The notes under the pieces were generated by a model. That model was not told the DNA's origin and made no database searches. It saw nothing but the letters and a program-made list of their open reading frames with translations. 26,463 nt of DNA from a virus: the IMG/VR virus record IMGVR_UViG_3300033429_000017, positions 1-26,463 of that record; one strand, given 5' to 3'. Shown piece by piece: positions 2,909 to 9,779 of this stretch. The position numbers and the translations under genes are program-made. Each line of letters opens with the position of its first letter. Positions within the stretch are counted from its first letter, which is position 1.

Positions 2909-3814
2909 ATGGCTCGCTACCGAACGGTTGATATCCGGATACACAGCGACGAAAAATATCGGAACCTCACCAAGCCCGAACCGTGCGGGCAATATTTGTT
3001 TCTCTATCTATTGATTGGTCCCCACACAGGACCCATTCCTGGGCTTTTTCGGCTGAGCCTCGCAGGCCTGGCCGACGAGCTTGGCTGGACCGTTGAAACC
3101 GTTTCGAAACCGTTTGCGGAATTGTTTCGAAACGGTATGGCGAAGGCCGACTGGGACGCCCGTTTGGTCTGGCTCCCGAACGCGCTGAAGTACAACCCGC
3201 CCGCCAACCCGAACGTGATCAAGGGCTGGGCGAAAGCGTGGGACGAGCTGCCGGAGTGCAGTCTAAAAGACGAAGCATATCGCGCATTTAGCTCATTCTT
3301 GGACGGATACTCGGAACCGTTCCGAAACGGTTTCGAAACGGTTTCGAAACCGTTTGGTAAACCGTTTCGAAAACAGGAACAGGAACAGGAACAGGAACAG
3401 GAAACAAATACTCGTGCAGCCGACGCTGACGCGCCGGGATTGATTGACGCGAAACCGAAAAACGGAAAGAAGCCCAGCGCGGCCGAGGTCGACGCAATCT
3501 GGCAACACTACCGGGCGCATCACCAGCGGGCGGTCGTGACGCTCCGGCGCGGGCGGAAAGAATACCGGCTGATTGAGCGGGCGCTGGAAGACTTCGGCGC
3601 CGATGACGTTCGGAAGGCCATAGACGGATACCATAGGAGCCCATGGCACACCGGGACCAACCCCAGCGGTAAGCAATACCTTGGCATCGACCTAATTCTG
3701 CGCGATGCCTCGAAAATTCAGGCCGGCATCGAGATGGCCGAGCCGCGCTCGAGCGGCGGCGGCCCGCGCACGCTAGTTGACTACCGACCGGGCGCGCACG
3801 ATACAAACCACTGA
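2909..3814 (+). CDS. phage replication initiator with winged-helix domain
   Basis: The product (301 residues) is an O-type replication initiator that would bind the origin and recruit the helicase encoded next. Residues 1-95 (opening MARYRTVDIRI) form a winged-helix DNA-binding domain with LADELGW before the recognition region. Residues 155-166 are a KQEQEQ-type linker, and residues 190-270 are a helical C-terminal domain of the kind seen in phage DnaB-loading proteins. The peptide ETVSKPF occurs twice (63-69 and 143-149) because the gene carries iteron-like DNA repeats in the same frame. I chose ATG 2909 (GAGG four bases before it) over the in-frame TTG at 2873 because the family begins at this motif. 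DnaD-like or O-like subfamily is not resolved. Confidence 0.8.
   Translation: MARYRTVDIRIHSDEKYRNLTKPEPCGQYLFLYLLIGPHTGPIPGLFRLSLAGLADELGWTVETVSKPFAELFRNGMAKADWDARLVWLPNALKYNPPANPNVIKGWAKAWDELPECSLKDEAYRAFSSFLDGYSEPFRNGFETVSKPFGKPFRKQEQEQEQEQETNTRAADADAPGLIDAKPKNGKKPSAAEVDAIWQHYRAHHQRAVVTLRRGRKEYRLIERALEDFGADDVRKAIDGYHRSPWHTGTNPSGKQYLGIDLILRDASKIQAGIEMAEPRSSGGGPRTLVDYRPGAHDTNH
3095..3135 (+). repeat. upstream iteron pair inside the initiator gene
   Basis: GTTTCGAAAC occurs at 3101-3110 and 3124-3133, each flanked by ACCG or CGGT. These copies match the main cluster at 3316-3372 and lie within the winged-helix coding region, about 200 bp upstream of it. They may be additional initiator-binding sites. 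Confidence 0.6.
3316..3403 (+). repeat. iteron cluster plus CAGGAA tract: candidate replication origin
   Basis: Palindromic TTTCGAAA units start at 3331, 3342 and 3365. Degenerate copies start at 3320 and 3353, so four successive units are spaced exactly 11 bp apart (one helical turn). Positions 3336-3355 form a perfect 20-bp palindrome, AAACGGTTTCGAAACCGTTT. Five perfect CAGGAA units follow at 3374-3403, giving a strongly purine-rich strand. Iterons followed by a strand-asymmetric purine-rich tract inside the initiator gene is the layout of the lambda origin in gene O. The repeats are directly visible; origin function is inferred. Confidence 0.7.
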
Positions 3815-3830: not shown

Positions 3831-5075
3831 ATGGACCCAACCACGGAAACCAGAATCATCGGCGCAGCGTTGTCTGAGCCGGGCCTATGGCTATCACACG
3901 CCGACAGAATCAACGGCGAGCTATTCTCAGCCAACCGGGCCCTTGCCTCGGCGCTCTGCGAGATGCGCGACGCAGGCCAGCCGACCGACCCGCAATCCGT
4001 GCACGCCTGGCTCGGCGCGCGCGGCCGGGGCGTCGCGATGTCGGACTTGCTCGAGCTCGCCGAGCATTCGCCGCTGTCGCCGGAGTCGATGGCGGCAGCC
4101 GTTGCCATGCTGCACAACCAGGCGAAGCGGGCGGCGCTCCACAAGCTAGGCAAAGCGCTGACCGAAACCAGCATCAACAGGCGGTATCATGTCGACGATG
4201 TCATGGCAGAAACCATGTCGACGCTAGCAGCCATCGGCGCGAGGTCGGCGCAGGCGCTGGAGCCTATCGGCGACGGTCTGAAGCGGGTCGTCAAAAACCT
4301 CGGCAAGCCGGTCGAGCGCACGGTGAAGACCGGGATATCAACCATCGACGCGGTAACGGGCGGCTTCAGGCCTGGCCAGCTCGTCGTGCTGGGCGCTAGG
4401 CCGAGCATGGGCAAGACATCGCTGGCGCTCGGCATCACGCGCCAAGCCGCATTGGCTGGCAAAACTGTGGCGTTTTTCAGCCTCGAAATGTCGTCCGACG
4501 ATGTCATTTGTAGGATACTGGCGGACCTAGGCGACGTCGACCTTGGCCGCATCATGCTGCACGACCTGCGCGAGCAGGACTTGACCGCCGTGCTGACGGC
4601 GGCGAACAAGCTACACAAGACCCGCGTTTTCATCGGAGAGAGCACGGACCAAATCGAGGGCGTCTGCACGCAACTCCAGCACCAGCACGGGCTCGACCTG
4701 GTCGTGGTCGATTACCTGCAGCTCATGAGCATCAGGGCCGAGAGTCGCGAGCAGCAAATTGCAACGCTGTCGCGCGGGCTCAAGCAACTGGCCAGGCGTG
4801 CCAAGGCGCCGGTCCTGGTCTTGTCCCAGCTCAACCGCAACTTGGAACAGCGGGTGAGCAAGCGGCCGCAGCTCAGCGACCTGCGCGAGTCCGGCGCCAT
4901 CGAGCAAGACGCCGACGTTGCGATGCTGCTCTGGCGGCGGAGTTACTACGACCCGGACGCGGACCAGACCGAGGCCGAGTTGGTTGTAGCCAAGCATCGC
5001 AACGGACCCGTCGGCGTGGTGCCGCTCGAGTGGGACGAGACGCGGGCCAGGTTCAGCGCGGGAAATCGCCAATGA
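3831..5075 (+). CDS. dnaB: DnaB-type replicative helicase
   Basis: The product (414 residues) is a hexameric ATP-dependent helicase that unwinds the fork during phage replication. Residues 1-100 form the N-terminal helical domain. A linker follows, then the RecA-like domain from about residue 160. It has Walker A GARPSMGKTS (188-197), SLEMS (217-221), Walker B VVVDYLQLM (291-299), LSQLNR (331-336) and the arginine-finger region RPQLSDLRESGAIEQDAD (345-362). The C-terminus ends with KHRNGPVG, normal for the family. Length is slightly below bacterial DnaB (about 450-470). ATG 3831 has an AAAAAGGAAAG ribosome site and lies 16 bp after the initiator gene. The TTG at 3777 would overlap that gene and is less likely. 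Confidence 0.95.
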   Translation: MDPTTETRIIGAALSEPGLWLSHADRINGELFSANRALASALCEMRDAGQPTDPQSVHAWLGARGRGVAMSDLLELAEHSPLSPESMAAAVAMLHNQAKRAALHKLGKALTETSINRRYHVDDVMAETMSTLAAIGARSAQALEPIGDGLKRVVKNLGKPVERTVKTGISTIDAVTGGFRPGQLVVLGARPSMGKTSLALGITRQAALAGKTVAFFSLEMSSDDVICRILADLGDVDLGRIMLHDLREQDLTAVLTAANKLHKTRVFIGESTDQIEGVCTQLQHQHGLDLVVVDYLQLMSIRAESREQQIATLSRGLKQLARRAKAPVLVLSQLNRNLEQRVSKRPQLSDLRESGAIEQDADVAMLLWRRSYYDPDADQTEAELVVAKHRNGPVGVVPLEWDETRARFSAGNRQ

Positions 5076-5287: not shown

Positions 5288-5293
5288 TTGAGT

Positions 5294-5448
5294 TTTTACA
5301 CGACCGTGTAAAAGCTCAGAACGGACGCCGCGACTATTTACACGACTGTGTAAAAGCACGTCCAACCAACCCAAAATACGTAAAGGAAAAACGAGTATTT
5401 ACACGACCGTGTAAAAGCACAGCGCGAGTATTTACACGACCGTGTAAA
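5294..5448 (+). repeat. four-copy palindrome array, TTTACAC-GACY-GTGTAAA
   Basis: Copies occupy 5295-5312, 5337-5354, 5398-5415 and 5431-5448, all in the same orientation, with start-to-start spacings of 42, 61 and 33 bp. Each has perfect 7-bp arms around a GACC or GACT centre, and the only difference between copies is in that centre. Flanks are also shared: GAGTA (or a variant) before and AAGCAC (or AAGCTC) after. The region is more AT-rich than its surroundings. Likely roles are binding sites for a dimeric repressor, an initiator or a partition-type protein. Read as RNA, each copy is a weak AU-rich hairpin. No par or repressor gene is in the window. Confidence 0.85.
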
Positions 5449-5509
5449 AGCACATGGAATCAAGCGCAAATAGGCGCAATCAGCAAAATTGCAACGGGAT
5501 AGGTGAATT

Positions 5510-7064: not shown

Positions 7065-9779
7065 CTAGGTCGCGCTGGTAAGGCCCGCGCCTTCCAGCGC
7101 ATCAATGATTGCTGTGATTGCGGTGATTGACGTCGCCAGGTCGGTCGGGTCGCTGATTTTCGCCGGCTGCGACGCTGGTGGTGTGACGCCGAACGCGCCA
7201 AAGCCTTTGCCGATTTGTAGCTCCTGGTCGTACGAACCGCCGATTGTGCCGATTGTGCAGCGCCCGGACGCCGTGGTCGCTGCAAGCCGGCCGATGGCTA
7301 TCGCCTGGTCGTGTCCGCTGCCGACCGTCGCGGTCGCTCCAATGGCGACGCCATAATCCGCGCGGACCCTCGCGGTCGAGCCACCGATTGCGATACCGTA
7401 CGGATTATCCACCCGCGCCGACGTGCCCATTGCTATGGCCGACGTTGCGCCCGCATCGACCAGCGGATTGCGGCCCAACGCTAACGCACCGATGGCGTTG
7501 GCGTCCGCGCCTTCTCCGATGGCGACGGCGCCGGAATAACCGGCATCGACACCAGCGCCTTCGCCGATGGCAATCGATTTTAGCGCGCCAGGTTCGACAG
7601 CCGCGTTGCGCCCAACGGCTATCGCGCCATCGCAACCCGAGGCGGGCGTGCTGTTGCCGACGACTGCGTTGTATCCCAGCGCCACGGCGCCGGTGCTGCT
7701 GCCGCTGTTCGACGCGTAGACCTTCGAGCCGTAGCCTGTCGCGACCGCGTAGGTTTGGCCAGCGCCCACCAGGGCGTCAGCGCCAACTGCCATCGCGCCC
7801 GCGACGCCTGCGCCGCCGAGGGCGCCAACGGCTGCGCCCGCTCCTATGGCCATGCCGCCGAGCGTAAACCCGCTCGCGACGTCGAAAACTCGACTGTTGT
7901 AACCAATTGCGAGCGACGTCAATGCGGCGTCGCCGACGAACGCGCCGTTACCTATTGCAATCGCGGCCACACAACCGGCGCCCGCCGACGTCCCTGAGCC
8001 GACGATGGTTGCGTTGGTGGCGCCGGGGTCGACAACGCCGGCCTCGCCGATACAGACCGAAGCCTCGCAGCCCGCGCCGGGCGTTGCGTTGCCTATTGCC
8101 GCGTTGCGCCCAATTGCCAACGCTCCGGCGCTATCGCCGGATGAAACGTCATAGACTTTCGCGGTAAAGCCCAGCGCCATGGCGCCGATATTCGCCGAGC
8201 CGGTCACGGCCGCGCCTTGCCCTGTCGAGATTGCGCCGGTTGCGTCCGCGAGGGCCTGGTAACCGACCGCAACGACGTTGGAGCCCGACGCCTTCGACGA
8301 TGCTCCTACCGCCACGCCATTGATGGCGCCCGGGTCGACAACCGCCAGCTCGCCCATACAGACCGCCGCGTTACAGCCAGCGCCAGGCGTAGACGCGCCG
8401 ACCGCGGCCTCGTAGCCGATGCAAATCGCGCCGTCGGAGTCGCCGGACGAAACCGCGTAGACCTTGGCCTTGGCTCCGAGCGCCAGGGCCGTGGCCTGCG
8501 CTGATAGACTGCGCTCGCCGAGCGCGATTGACCTGGCCTCGAGGGCGTCGCAGTCGTAGCCGATGGCGATGCCGCGCACGCCGCCGCCGACCTCGGCCTG
8601 CGGACCGATGGCGATGCTATTCGAGGCGCCGGTATTGACTCGCGAGTCGAGCCCGATGCTCACGGATGCGTCGACGCCCGTGGTGCCGTCGCCAGTCCGG
8701 GCGTTACGGCCTATCGCGAGGCCGCCCGTGCTGGCGCCGCTGGAAGGGTTCGGCACGGTTGCCGAGCCGCCGAGTGCGACGGCCGAAACCGCGCCGGCCA
8801 CTGCAGACGCACCGACGGCGAGGGTTGTCGATGCGGACACCGCCGCCTGATAGCCGACAGCGACCGAGCTCGCAGCGGCTGCTGGAATATCGACGTTGTA
8901 GCCAACGGCCACGCAATTGCCGCCGGTGTCGATTGATGCGTTTTGCCCGACGGCGACGCTGTTTTGGCCTGCGACAGTGCACGAGCCACCAACGGCAATA
9001 CCGTTATTTGCGGTCACGCTGGCCGATGAGCCGACGGCAACGGCGAAGGTTGCGTTTGCCACCGAGCCCCAGCCCAAGGCCACACCAGCCGCGCCAGTAG
9101 ATACCGCGCCGGAGCCGAACGCCTCTGAGCTGCCGCCCGCGCCGGGCTTACTGATGCTACCTGCGGCCGGAAACAGCATGGCGCCCGCGTCGCTCAGCGT
9201 GACGCCGGAGTCCTGGACCGTGTCGCCGCCGGTGCCGTTCCAGCGCGTCAAGGCGTGGTCGGTGCTGCTCGGCGGCAGGCCGATGCTTGGCGCCGGGTCG
9301 AGCCACGATGTCGCGCCGCCGCCGCCCGCGGTCAGCAATTGGCCGGTCGTCGCTGCGCCGCTCGACATATTGGCCGGGTCTAAGGCGGCCTGGTCGACCG
9401 CCAACGTACGGTCGGCGCTCAAGTCGCCGCCGCCGTTGATGCCGGTGCCGTTGTTGATGGCACGGGTCGTCGGGACGTGACCCGCGACGCTGCCGACGTT
9501 CGTGATATTCTGACCTACGAACGAAACCGCGCCATCGGGTTTTTTGATAATTTTACCGGTCGCGCCGTCGAAAACGGCGATGTCGCTATCGGCGACGCCG
9601 CCCGCTGGCCCGGTGACATCACCGAGGCCGGTCTCTGTCGCCCAGTCGATGCCGCCCGCGCCATCCGCGGTTAGGACCTCGCCGGCGGATGCGCCCGCGC
9701 TGCTCATATTGCCGGGCTCGAGCTGGGTCTCGTCGATGATGCCTATCGGCTGGACTGTGGCGATTTTGAGGTCGACCAT
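7065..9779 (-). CDS. long tail fibre with YadA-type trimeric adhesin head repeats
   Basis: The 904-residue product starts at ATG 9779 with AGGAG upstream. Residues 1-225 are a phage-like N-terminal part with short repeats (QLEPGNMSS and ALDPANMSS). Residues 225-850 are dozens of about 14-residue repeats of the form AVGxxAxV, AIGxxA or ALGxxA. They match the left-handed parallel beta-roll of trimeric autotransporter heads (Hep/Hag, YadA head). The last 40 residues form a helix (SITAITAIIDALEGAGL) that could be a trimer cap. No signal peptide, stalk or membrane beta-barrel is present, so this is not a bacterial adhesin. Position at the end of the tail operon supports a receptor-binding fibre. 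The receptor is unknown. Confidence 0.85.
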   Translation of the reverse strand: MVDLKIATVQPIGIIDETQLEPGNMSSAGASAGEVLTADGAGGIDWATETGLGDVTGPAGGVADSDIAVFDGATGKIIKKPDGAVSFVGQNITNVGSVAGHVPTTRAINNGTGINGGGDLSADRTLAVDQAALDPANMSSGAATTGQLLTAGGGGATSWLDPAPSIGLPPSSTDHALTRWNGTGGDTVQDSGVTLSDAGAMLFPAAGSISKPGAGGSSEAFGSGAVSTGAAGVALGWGSVANATFAVAVGSSASVTANNGIAVGGSCTVAGQNSVAVGQNASIDTGGNCVAVGYNVDIPAAAASSVAVGYQAAVSASTTLAVGASAVAGAVSAVALGGSATVPNPSSGASTGGLAIGRNARTGDGTTGVDASVSIGLDSRVNTGASNSIAIGPQAEVGGGVRGIAIGYDCDALEARSIALGERSLSAQATALALGAKAKVYAVSSGDSDGAICIGYEAAVGASTPGAGCNAAVCMGELAVVDPGAINGVAVGASSKASGSNVVAVGYQALADATGAISTGQGAAVTGSANIGAMALGFTAKVYDVSSGDSAGALAIGRNAAIGNATPGAGCEASVCIGEAGVVDPGATNATIVGSGTSAGAGCVAAIAIGNGAFVGDAALTSLAIGYNSRVFDVASGFTLGGMAIGAGAAVGALGGAGVAGAMAVGADALVGAGQTYAVATGYGSKVYASNSGSSTGAVALGYNAVVGNSTPASGCDGAIAVGRNAAVEPGALKSIAIGEGAGVDAGYSGAVAIGEGADANAIGALALGRNPLVDAGATSAIAMGTSARVDNPYGIAIGGSTARVRADYGVAIGATATVGSGHDQAIAIGRLAATTASGRCTIGTIGGSYDQELQIGKGFGAFGVTPPASQPAKISDPTDLATSITAITAIIDALEGAGLTSAT
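7490..8470 (-). repeat. long super-repeats inside the fibre gene
   Basis: On top of the 14-residue motif, a longer unit starts with KVY..SSGDS and continues through TPGAGC, VC.GE and VDPGA. It begins near 8464, 8160, 7890 and 7725, the last two copies being more diverged. The first two copies are about 100 residues apart. This indicates internal duplication and a target for recombination that changes fibre length. Confidence 0.65.

Follow-up and report, generated by a model that had tools for sequence, protein, structure and literature searches.

Origins of replication located inside initiator genes are already well known from lambda, the Stx phages, and RepA_N plasmids. In lambda and Stx phages, iterons occupy the middle of the initiator gene O, beside a special unwinding tract (PMC7466680). 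The Rep protein of the RepA_N replicon pSK41 is composed of a winged-helix N-terminal domain, a linker encoded by the origin, and a separate C-terminal domain, and the boxes lie centrally in the rep gene (PMC5703833). DnaA-trios are repeated.A. triplets next to DnaA boxes (PMC8287927). DnaD binds pairs of 5'-TnnT-3' (PMC10201434), which lie on the strand opposite the DnaA-trios.

The window, which is the whole stretch of DNA analyzed here, is a linear IMG/VR virus record of 26,463 bases and is probably a genome fragment. The gene of a RecT-type annealing protein, the initiator gene downstream of it, and the gene of a DnaB-type replicative helicase constitute a replication and recombination module (Table 1). 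In profile searches, the N-terminal half of the initiator matches phrog_1701, a DnaD-like helicase loader (E 1.7e-22), and the C-terminal half matches phrog_16167, a replication initiation protein (E 2.3e-10). The initiator is predicted to be formed by an N-terminal winged-helix domain, a linker encoded by the repeats, and a separate C-terminal domain. The AlphaFold model has a mean pLDDT of 84.8 with low confidence in the linker stretch, and a single-sequence model of the C-terminal domain alone has a pLDDT of 46. The main iteron cluster and the tract of hexamers fall between the two predicted domains.

Table 1 Features of the initiator locus, with positions in the window.
Feature	Position	Strand	Basis or details
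Initiator gene, 301 aa	2909..3814	+	Matches to phrog_1701 and phrog_16167; AlphaFold model
Predicted recognition helix codons, residues 62-74	3092..3130	+	Secondary structure of the model; overlaps the upstream iterons
Upstream iteron pair AACCGTT	3097..3114		Cores at 3097 and 3108
Asn100 codon	3206..3208	+	Covaries with a base of the iteron half-site
Main iteron cluster, AACSGTT cores	3315..3366		Cores at 3315, 3326, 3337, 3348, 3360; spacing 11, 11, 11, 12 bp
Spacer from last core to tract	3367..3373		7 bp
(CAGGAA)5 tract	3374..3403	+	Perfect units; tandem repeat and relatives
DnaB-type replicative helicase gene	3831..5075	+	DnaB_C 6.5e-82; phrog_19

The first-pass annotation of the window described four successive copies of the palindrome TTTCGAAA at an 11-bp period. 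Exact copies of TTTCGAAA within the initiator gene are positioned at 3102, 3125, 3331, 3342, and 3365. The first two are the additional copies that the annotation had placed about 200 bp upstream of the main cluster, and they are real. The series of four holds only in part: two exact copies are 11 bp apart, whereas the remaining ones are a one-mismatch TTCCGAAA at 3320 and a degenerate TTTGGTAA at 3353, and the next exact copy follows 23 bp on. The window contains seven copies of TTTCGAAA compared with 0.34 expected, a number reached in none of 100 shuffles. The five copies within the gene compare with 0.14-0.67 in protein-preserving shuffles, and none of 1000 such shuffles reaches five. The peptide ETVSKPF is encoded twice, as had been noted. 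We discarded the idea that TTTCGAAA is the bound unit, since it only arises where adjacent AACSGTT cores (S = C or G) meet and is not kept in relatives. The unit in the register conserved among relatives is a pseudo-palindromic 7-bp core, which in the window has the sequence AACSGTT. Five cores form the main cluster without interruption, and the cluster also scores as a tandem repeat with a period of 11. The upstream cluster, in which a degenerate third core AACGGTA at 3131 follows the pair, is about 220 bp away from the main one. The GC-skew profile of the window has no distinct switch at 3.3 kb; with its divergent gene blocks, a linear fragment of 26 kb does not allow the profile to decide.

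The five perfect CAGGAA units reported to follow the palindromes were confirmed at 3374-3403, 7 bp beyond the last core. The tract has A at every third base on the plus strand, and T at every third and CTG at every sixth base on the other strand. It forms ten.A. trinucleotides in a row (CAG GAA five times), where the DnaA-trio pattern requires at least three. The opposite strand, (TTCCTG)5, offers pairs of 5'-TnnT-3', as the DnaD recognition element requires. Given the encoded peptide QEQEQ, an equally long run occurs in 4-15 of 1000 synonymous shuffles. The tract of the window is by itself only moderately unusual, and it is the comparison with relatives that points to selection at the level of DNA. 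Ranked by stability, the tract is within the lowest 3.1% of all 32-mers in the window, at a GC content of 50%. In relatives, its stability is only mildly below that of the remaining initiator gene (mean z 0.93), so recognition of the sequence seems to be weightier than easy melting. A two-quartet G-quadruplex of the GG runs is disfavoured, since the variants CAGAAA, CAGTAA, and CCAGAA break GG. A structured RNA was rejected as well: an Rfam search of the window gave no match, and a strand-specific RNA role poorly fits the inverted tracts found in some relatives.

As in the lambda and Stx origins, the iterons of the locus occupy a central part of the initiator gene and adjoin a special tract. 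The lambda ori layout invoked in the first-pass annotation stands to this extent and fails for the protein family and the next gene. The iterons of the window are 7-bp cores at 11/12 bp, the tract is a hexamer array with 50% GC instead of an AT-rich stretch, and the next gene encodes a DnaB-type helicase instead of a lambda-P-type loader. The initiator has no match to O-like families up to E 0.1 in the phrog profile search, in which phrog_1701, phrog_16167, and others were matched; some of the relatives do match O-like families.

RepA_N replicons and the DnaD-like organisers of phages are closer to the window than lambda. RepA_N replicons have in common with it boxes in the part of the gene coding for the linker, a separate C-terminal domain, and, as far as the predicted fold goes, an N-terminal winged helix. 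They differ in the core sequence and in the 11/12-bp spacing, and the available part of the pSK41 report describes no hexamer tract. A Pfam scan of the initiator gave no RepA_N match up to E 0.1. The predicted N-terminal fold matches 5kbj, 4pt7, and 4pta, with Z 6.0 over 88 residues for 5kbj, tied with CRP domains; a Foldseek search of the PDB yielded nothing below E 0.05. The fold of the model is compatible with RepA_N but not discriminating. The DnaD-like organisers of Firmicutes phages (Geobacillus virus E2, Listeria phage LP-030-3) possess a related N-terminal domain, and their genes contain 11-bp repeats followed by a six-base tract in the same place. However, their cores follow the pattern ATACnGTAT, and the place of (CAGGAA)n is taken by, for example, (AAAAAG)n, (GAAGAAGAAAAA)n, or (GCTAAT)n. 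The bacterial basal unwinding system together with the DnaD element resembles the locus in its double-strand boxes, short spacer, and trinucleotide-periodic single-strand motif. In contrast to that system, the locus has no DnaA boxes near the tract and a different initiator, and its tract is inside the gene, in an orientation to the boxes that is not fixed.

Relatives were gathered from species genomes and viral contigs with the N-terminal domain alone as a query, so that the tract was not used, and a scan seeded partly by KQEQEQEQ was left out of the tract frequency. The tract is present in 158 of the 167 distinct initiator genes found by the N-terminal domain (24/28, 70/71, and 64/68 in the individual sets), typically after AASSSTT cores spaced by 11/12 bp. 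It is missing from a few complete relatives among the 167, namely L284, L290, L302, and L386. The closest relative, L004, has 63% identity; both its cores, with spacings of 11, 11 and 11, 11, 12 bp, and its tract are placed correspondingly. The search for the same cluster in related phages, which the first-pass annotation had proposed, is thus positive, and the presence of the cluster in related initiators favours its reading of a candidate origin inside the gene. The commonest gap between the cores and the tract in relatives is 7-8 bp, and the next is 20 bp, which corresponds to one more degenerate unit. Hundreds of other phages keep the signal of iterons and tract inside the initiator gene. 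The host titles among the relatives found by the N-terminal domain are mostly Beta- and Gammaproteobacteria, with additional Alphaproteobacteria, Desulfovibrio, and some metagenome bins. The phrog_1701 profile is matched in 66 of 67 relatives, and two related proteins were found in plasmids. Genes of helicases, primases, or DnaC-type loaders are common directly downstream of the initiators of relatives.

Replication slippage might have spread the tract, which would then encode no more than a flexible polar linker, with no function of the DNA. Six-base units do expand in frame by slippage, the linker has low model confidence, and synonymous shuffles match the run of the window at the frequency given above. 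We nevertheless regard slippage as hardly credible, given the frame and strand switches, frozen silent bases, and varying amino acids among relatives, and the presence of the tract in nearly all of them. Most genes translate the tract as EQEQ, others as GTGT, and two groups, which read it from the opposite strand, as PVPV. The label of frame and strand changes 10 times on a tree of 80 representatives. The GT-frame tracts contain 123 Gly, Thr, Ala, Ser, and Val codons, of which 122 end in A, compared with about 9-20% elsewhere in the genes, while hexamer positions 4 and 6, which change the residue, are only about 70% conserved. Pro in the PV-frame genes is encoded by CCT in 9 of 10 tract codons versus 2 of 27 elsewhere. 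Silent sites that are frozen and replacement sites that are free are the reverse of protein selection and therefore indicate that the DNA is selected. The earlier suggestion that DNA function shapes the protein gains support from these frame switches with frozen silent sites. A DNA-only scan of viral contigs with (AACAGG)4 yielded 82 matches in the initiator family (81 by a stricter count) among 120 matches listed, compared with 20 in initiators among 120 listed for the synonymous control (GAGCAG)4; viral contigs are unevenly sampled, several of the scans represent the best 80 or 120 matches listed, and cluster weights are approximate.

Across the two common frames, the hexamer consensus is CAGnAn, with the two A positions conserved the most (98-100%), followed by the C and G of CAG. 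Runs with T at every third base have a median of 13 versus 4.8 in shuffled sequences, and exceed nearly all codon shuffles in 82 of 94 genes of the first set of relatives. The polar residues E, K, D, N, and Q have A as the middle base of their codons. The A positions of the EQ-frame genes and of most Firmicutes genes could thus be attributed to polar codons too, and the decisive cases are GT, PV, VT, and NANA.

The iterons carry a similar signature. Upstream of the tract, 82 representatives contain 472 AASSSTT cores, where synonymous permutations give 149 and codon shuffles 29. Together, the codon comparisons show that in both iterons and tract, selection acts on the DNA itself and not only on the peptide it encodes. 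Successive cores in relatives are mostly 12, 11, 24, or 23 bp apart. The second core cluster of relatives is located about 170-220 bp upstream, on codons 58-74, where 206 cores compare with 61.5 by synonymous permutation. The same codons that specify the predicted recognition helix contain the upstream binding site, and their choice is skewed in favour of preserving it. In the L004-L393 initiators (codons 58-74), the DNA coding for the helix is itself a copy of the site which this helix probably reads.

The flavours of the core among phages are AAGSCTT, AACCCTT/AAGGGTT, and AACSGTT, and the half-site covaries with residue 100 of the initiator. When all cores are considered at a threshold of 30%, Ser is combined with G-only half-sites in 41 genes (41/41), Asn with C-containing half-sites in 37 (37/39), Asn with G in two, and Ser with C in none. 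The linker cluster alone gives the same split at a threshold of 25%, with six Ser genes having a minor C share. On the tree, the core flavour changes six times and residue 100 changes seven times. Well supported branches provide only three independent pairs of flavour and residue, which nearly always agree and are too few for significance. The covariation supports direct binding of the cores by the winged-helix domain. Residue 100 is positioned just before the helix that follows the wing, outside the recognition helix, and its contact with a base is therefore only a candidate.

Palindromic sites and a winged helix would also suit a repressor, and iteron initiators are often autoregulated. It is nonetheless improbable that the repeats are operators by which the initiator represses its own or other genes, with no origin at this place. 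The sites lie within the gene, at a depth of 190-460 bp, and invariably accompany a tract, and a repressor would explain neither the tract nor the frame switches.

The 73 Firmicutes-type representatives, the hosts of which were assigned from named relatives and not from the contigs themselves, carry other units, among them (AAAAAG)n, (GAAGAAGAAAAA)n, (AATGAC)n, (AATAAC)n, and (GCTAAT)n. In most of them, one strand of the tract shows a T at each third position; in 52 of the 73 genes, such runs surpass nearly all codon shuffles. The phage vB_SmeS_BUCT702 (L481), recorded as a Stenotrophomonas phage, has a Firmicutes-type initiator encoded by a 36% GC gene with (CTAATA)n, and its stated host may be wrong.

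The main rival for the reader of the tract is the host primase. The tract would then be an array of DnaG start sites, (TTCCTG)n with CTG every six bases, priming the first strand, while the iterons serve for binding. The primases of E. coli, P. aeruginosa, and Y. pestis, all gammaproteobacterial, use CTG (PMC5204125), and the C-terminal domain of the pSK41 initiator binds DnaG (PMC5703833). CAG is kept in 485 of 533 hexamers, and Gln is encoded by CAG in 94% of tract codons versus 58% elsewhere. However, departures that keep A at every third base and lose CAG number 37, and the reverse only 3, although in the EQ frame a CAG-to-CAA change does not alter the residue. Most of the Firmicutes units, for example (AAAAAG)n, lack CTA, TTA, and CTG, and the fixed fifth base in GT-frame genes is left unexplained. 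We therefore consider the primase array unlikely.

A host reader could serve unrelated initiators, and the coding-strand tract fits the published search pattern of DnaA-trios, (.A.){3,} (PMC8287927). An array of DnaA-trios used by the host DnaA, and not by a phage factor, is nevertheless very improbable. The orientation of the strands relative to the iterons is not kept, and DnaA boxes were rejected as part of the locus: none is near the tract, and box-like sites are depleted in the initiator genes of the family (17 versus 28.2 in codon shuffles). At least one initiator, L102, has an unrelated N-terminus and replication-family matches, yet the tract is present in its gene after different repeats. 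The winged helix of the family thus need not be the reader of the tract, and L102 hints at a shared reader or one from the host. L102, L081, and L485 (phi297) are initiators or likely initiators with unrelated N-termini and an AACAGG-type or GGGACA-type tract in the linker. The similar (GGGACA)n tract of Pseudomonas phage phi297 is without A at every third base.

We consider it likely that the region is a theta-type origin in the initiator gene, where the iterons bind the winged helix and the periodic tract is the site of melting or helicase loading. Its identity as an origin is strongly suggested by comparative anatomy and by analogy. The winged-helix domain would bind the 11/12-bp-phased AASSSTT cores (AACSGTT in the window) of both clusters, which the covariation strongly supports. 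An oligomer of the initiator on the main cluster would then melt the adjacent (CAGGAA)n tract. The single strand with T, or A, at every third base would be read by the initiator or by a partner from the replisome, and would set the place of helicase loading; this step is modelled on DnaA-trios and the DnaD recognition element. As the gene order suggests, the DnaB-type helicase encoded by the neighbouring gene would load, or other phages would use a DnaC-type loader to deliver a helicase, and replication would start. The DnaD-like match, the helicase, primase, and DnaC-type genes downstream, and the analogy make a strand-opening, helicase-loading site the most likely role of the tract. The orientation of the tract to the iterons varies, being inverted in the PV-frame genes, so a polar reader fits poorly.

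More tentatively, we speculate that phages of Proteobacteria and Firmicutes share an origin code that is independent of frame and strand, in which helically phased iterons, recognized by the initiator, are followed by a trinucleotide-periodic array with A or T at every third base, read as a single strand by a common replication factor. The code would be a phage counterpart of the module of DnaA boxes, DnaA-trios, and the DnaD element, used by related and some unrelated initiators, with the upstream iterons also encoding the recognition helix.

The literature on phage origins that was searched, mainly papers accessible without subscription, yielded no description of the tract. Within it, the retention of the tract through changes of frame and strand, the third-base periodicity in two bacterial divisions, and the covariation of a residue with the iterons appear to be new. 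The arrangement can be expressed as a searchable rule of AASSSTT cores at 11/12 bp, a 7-8 bp gap, and a tract with A or T at every third base, with which the probable origin can be located in many phages and prophages where none has been mapped. The frame switches provide a clear example from nature in which DNA function takes precedence over the sequence of the protein, and the link between Ser or Asn at residue 100 and the iterons offers a testable specificity residue. The tract could also serve as a compact phage model for the part played by trinucleotide-periodic single strands in directing unwinding and the loading of the helicase, a question still open for bacterial origins.

Several other features of the window were observed. 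Positions 5289-5454, directly after the helicase gene, contain four copies of an inverted-repeat unit of about 30 nt (TTTACACGACCGTGTAAA), 33-61 bp apart, which look like an operator or a second repeat array. A small gene at 2058-2300 matches Pfam PF24729 (1.5e-14), the Acb2/Tad1 hairpin domain; proteins of this family are anti-defence factors with which phages sequester signal nucleotides. The minus strand at 7065-9779, near the tail genes, encodes a protein of 904 residues rich in short AVG/AIG-type repeats, which we take to resemble the repetitive heads of trimeric adhesins, and which is probably a tail fibre or appendage.
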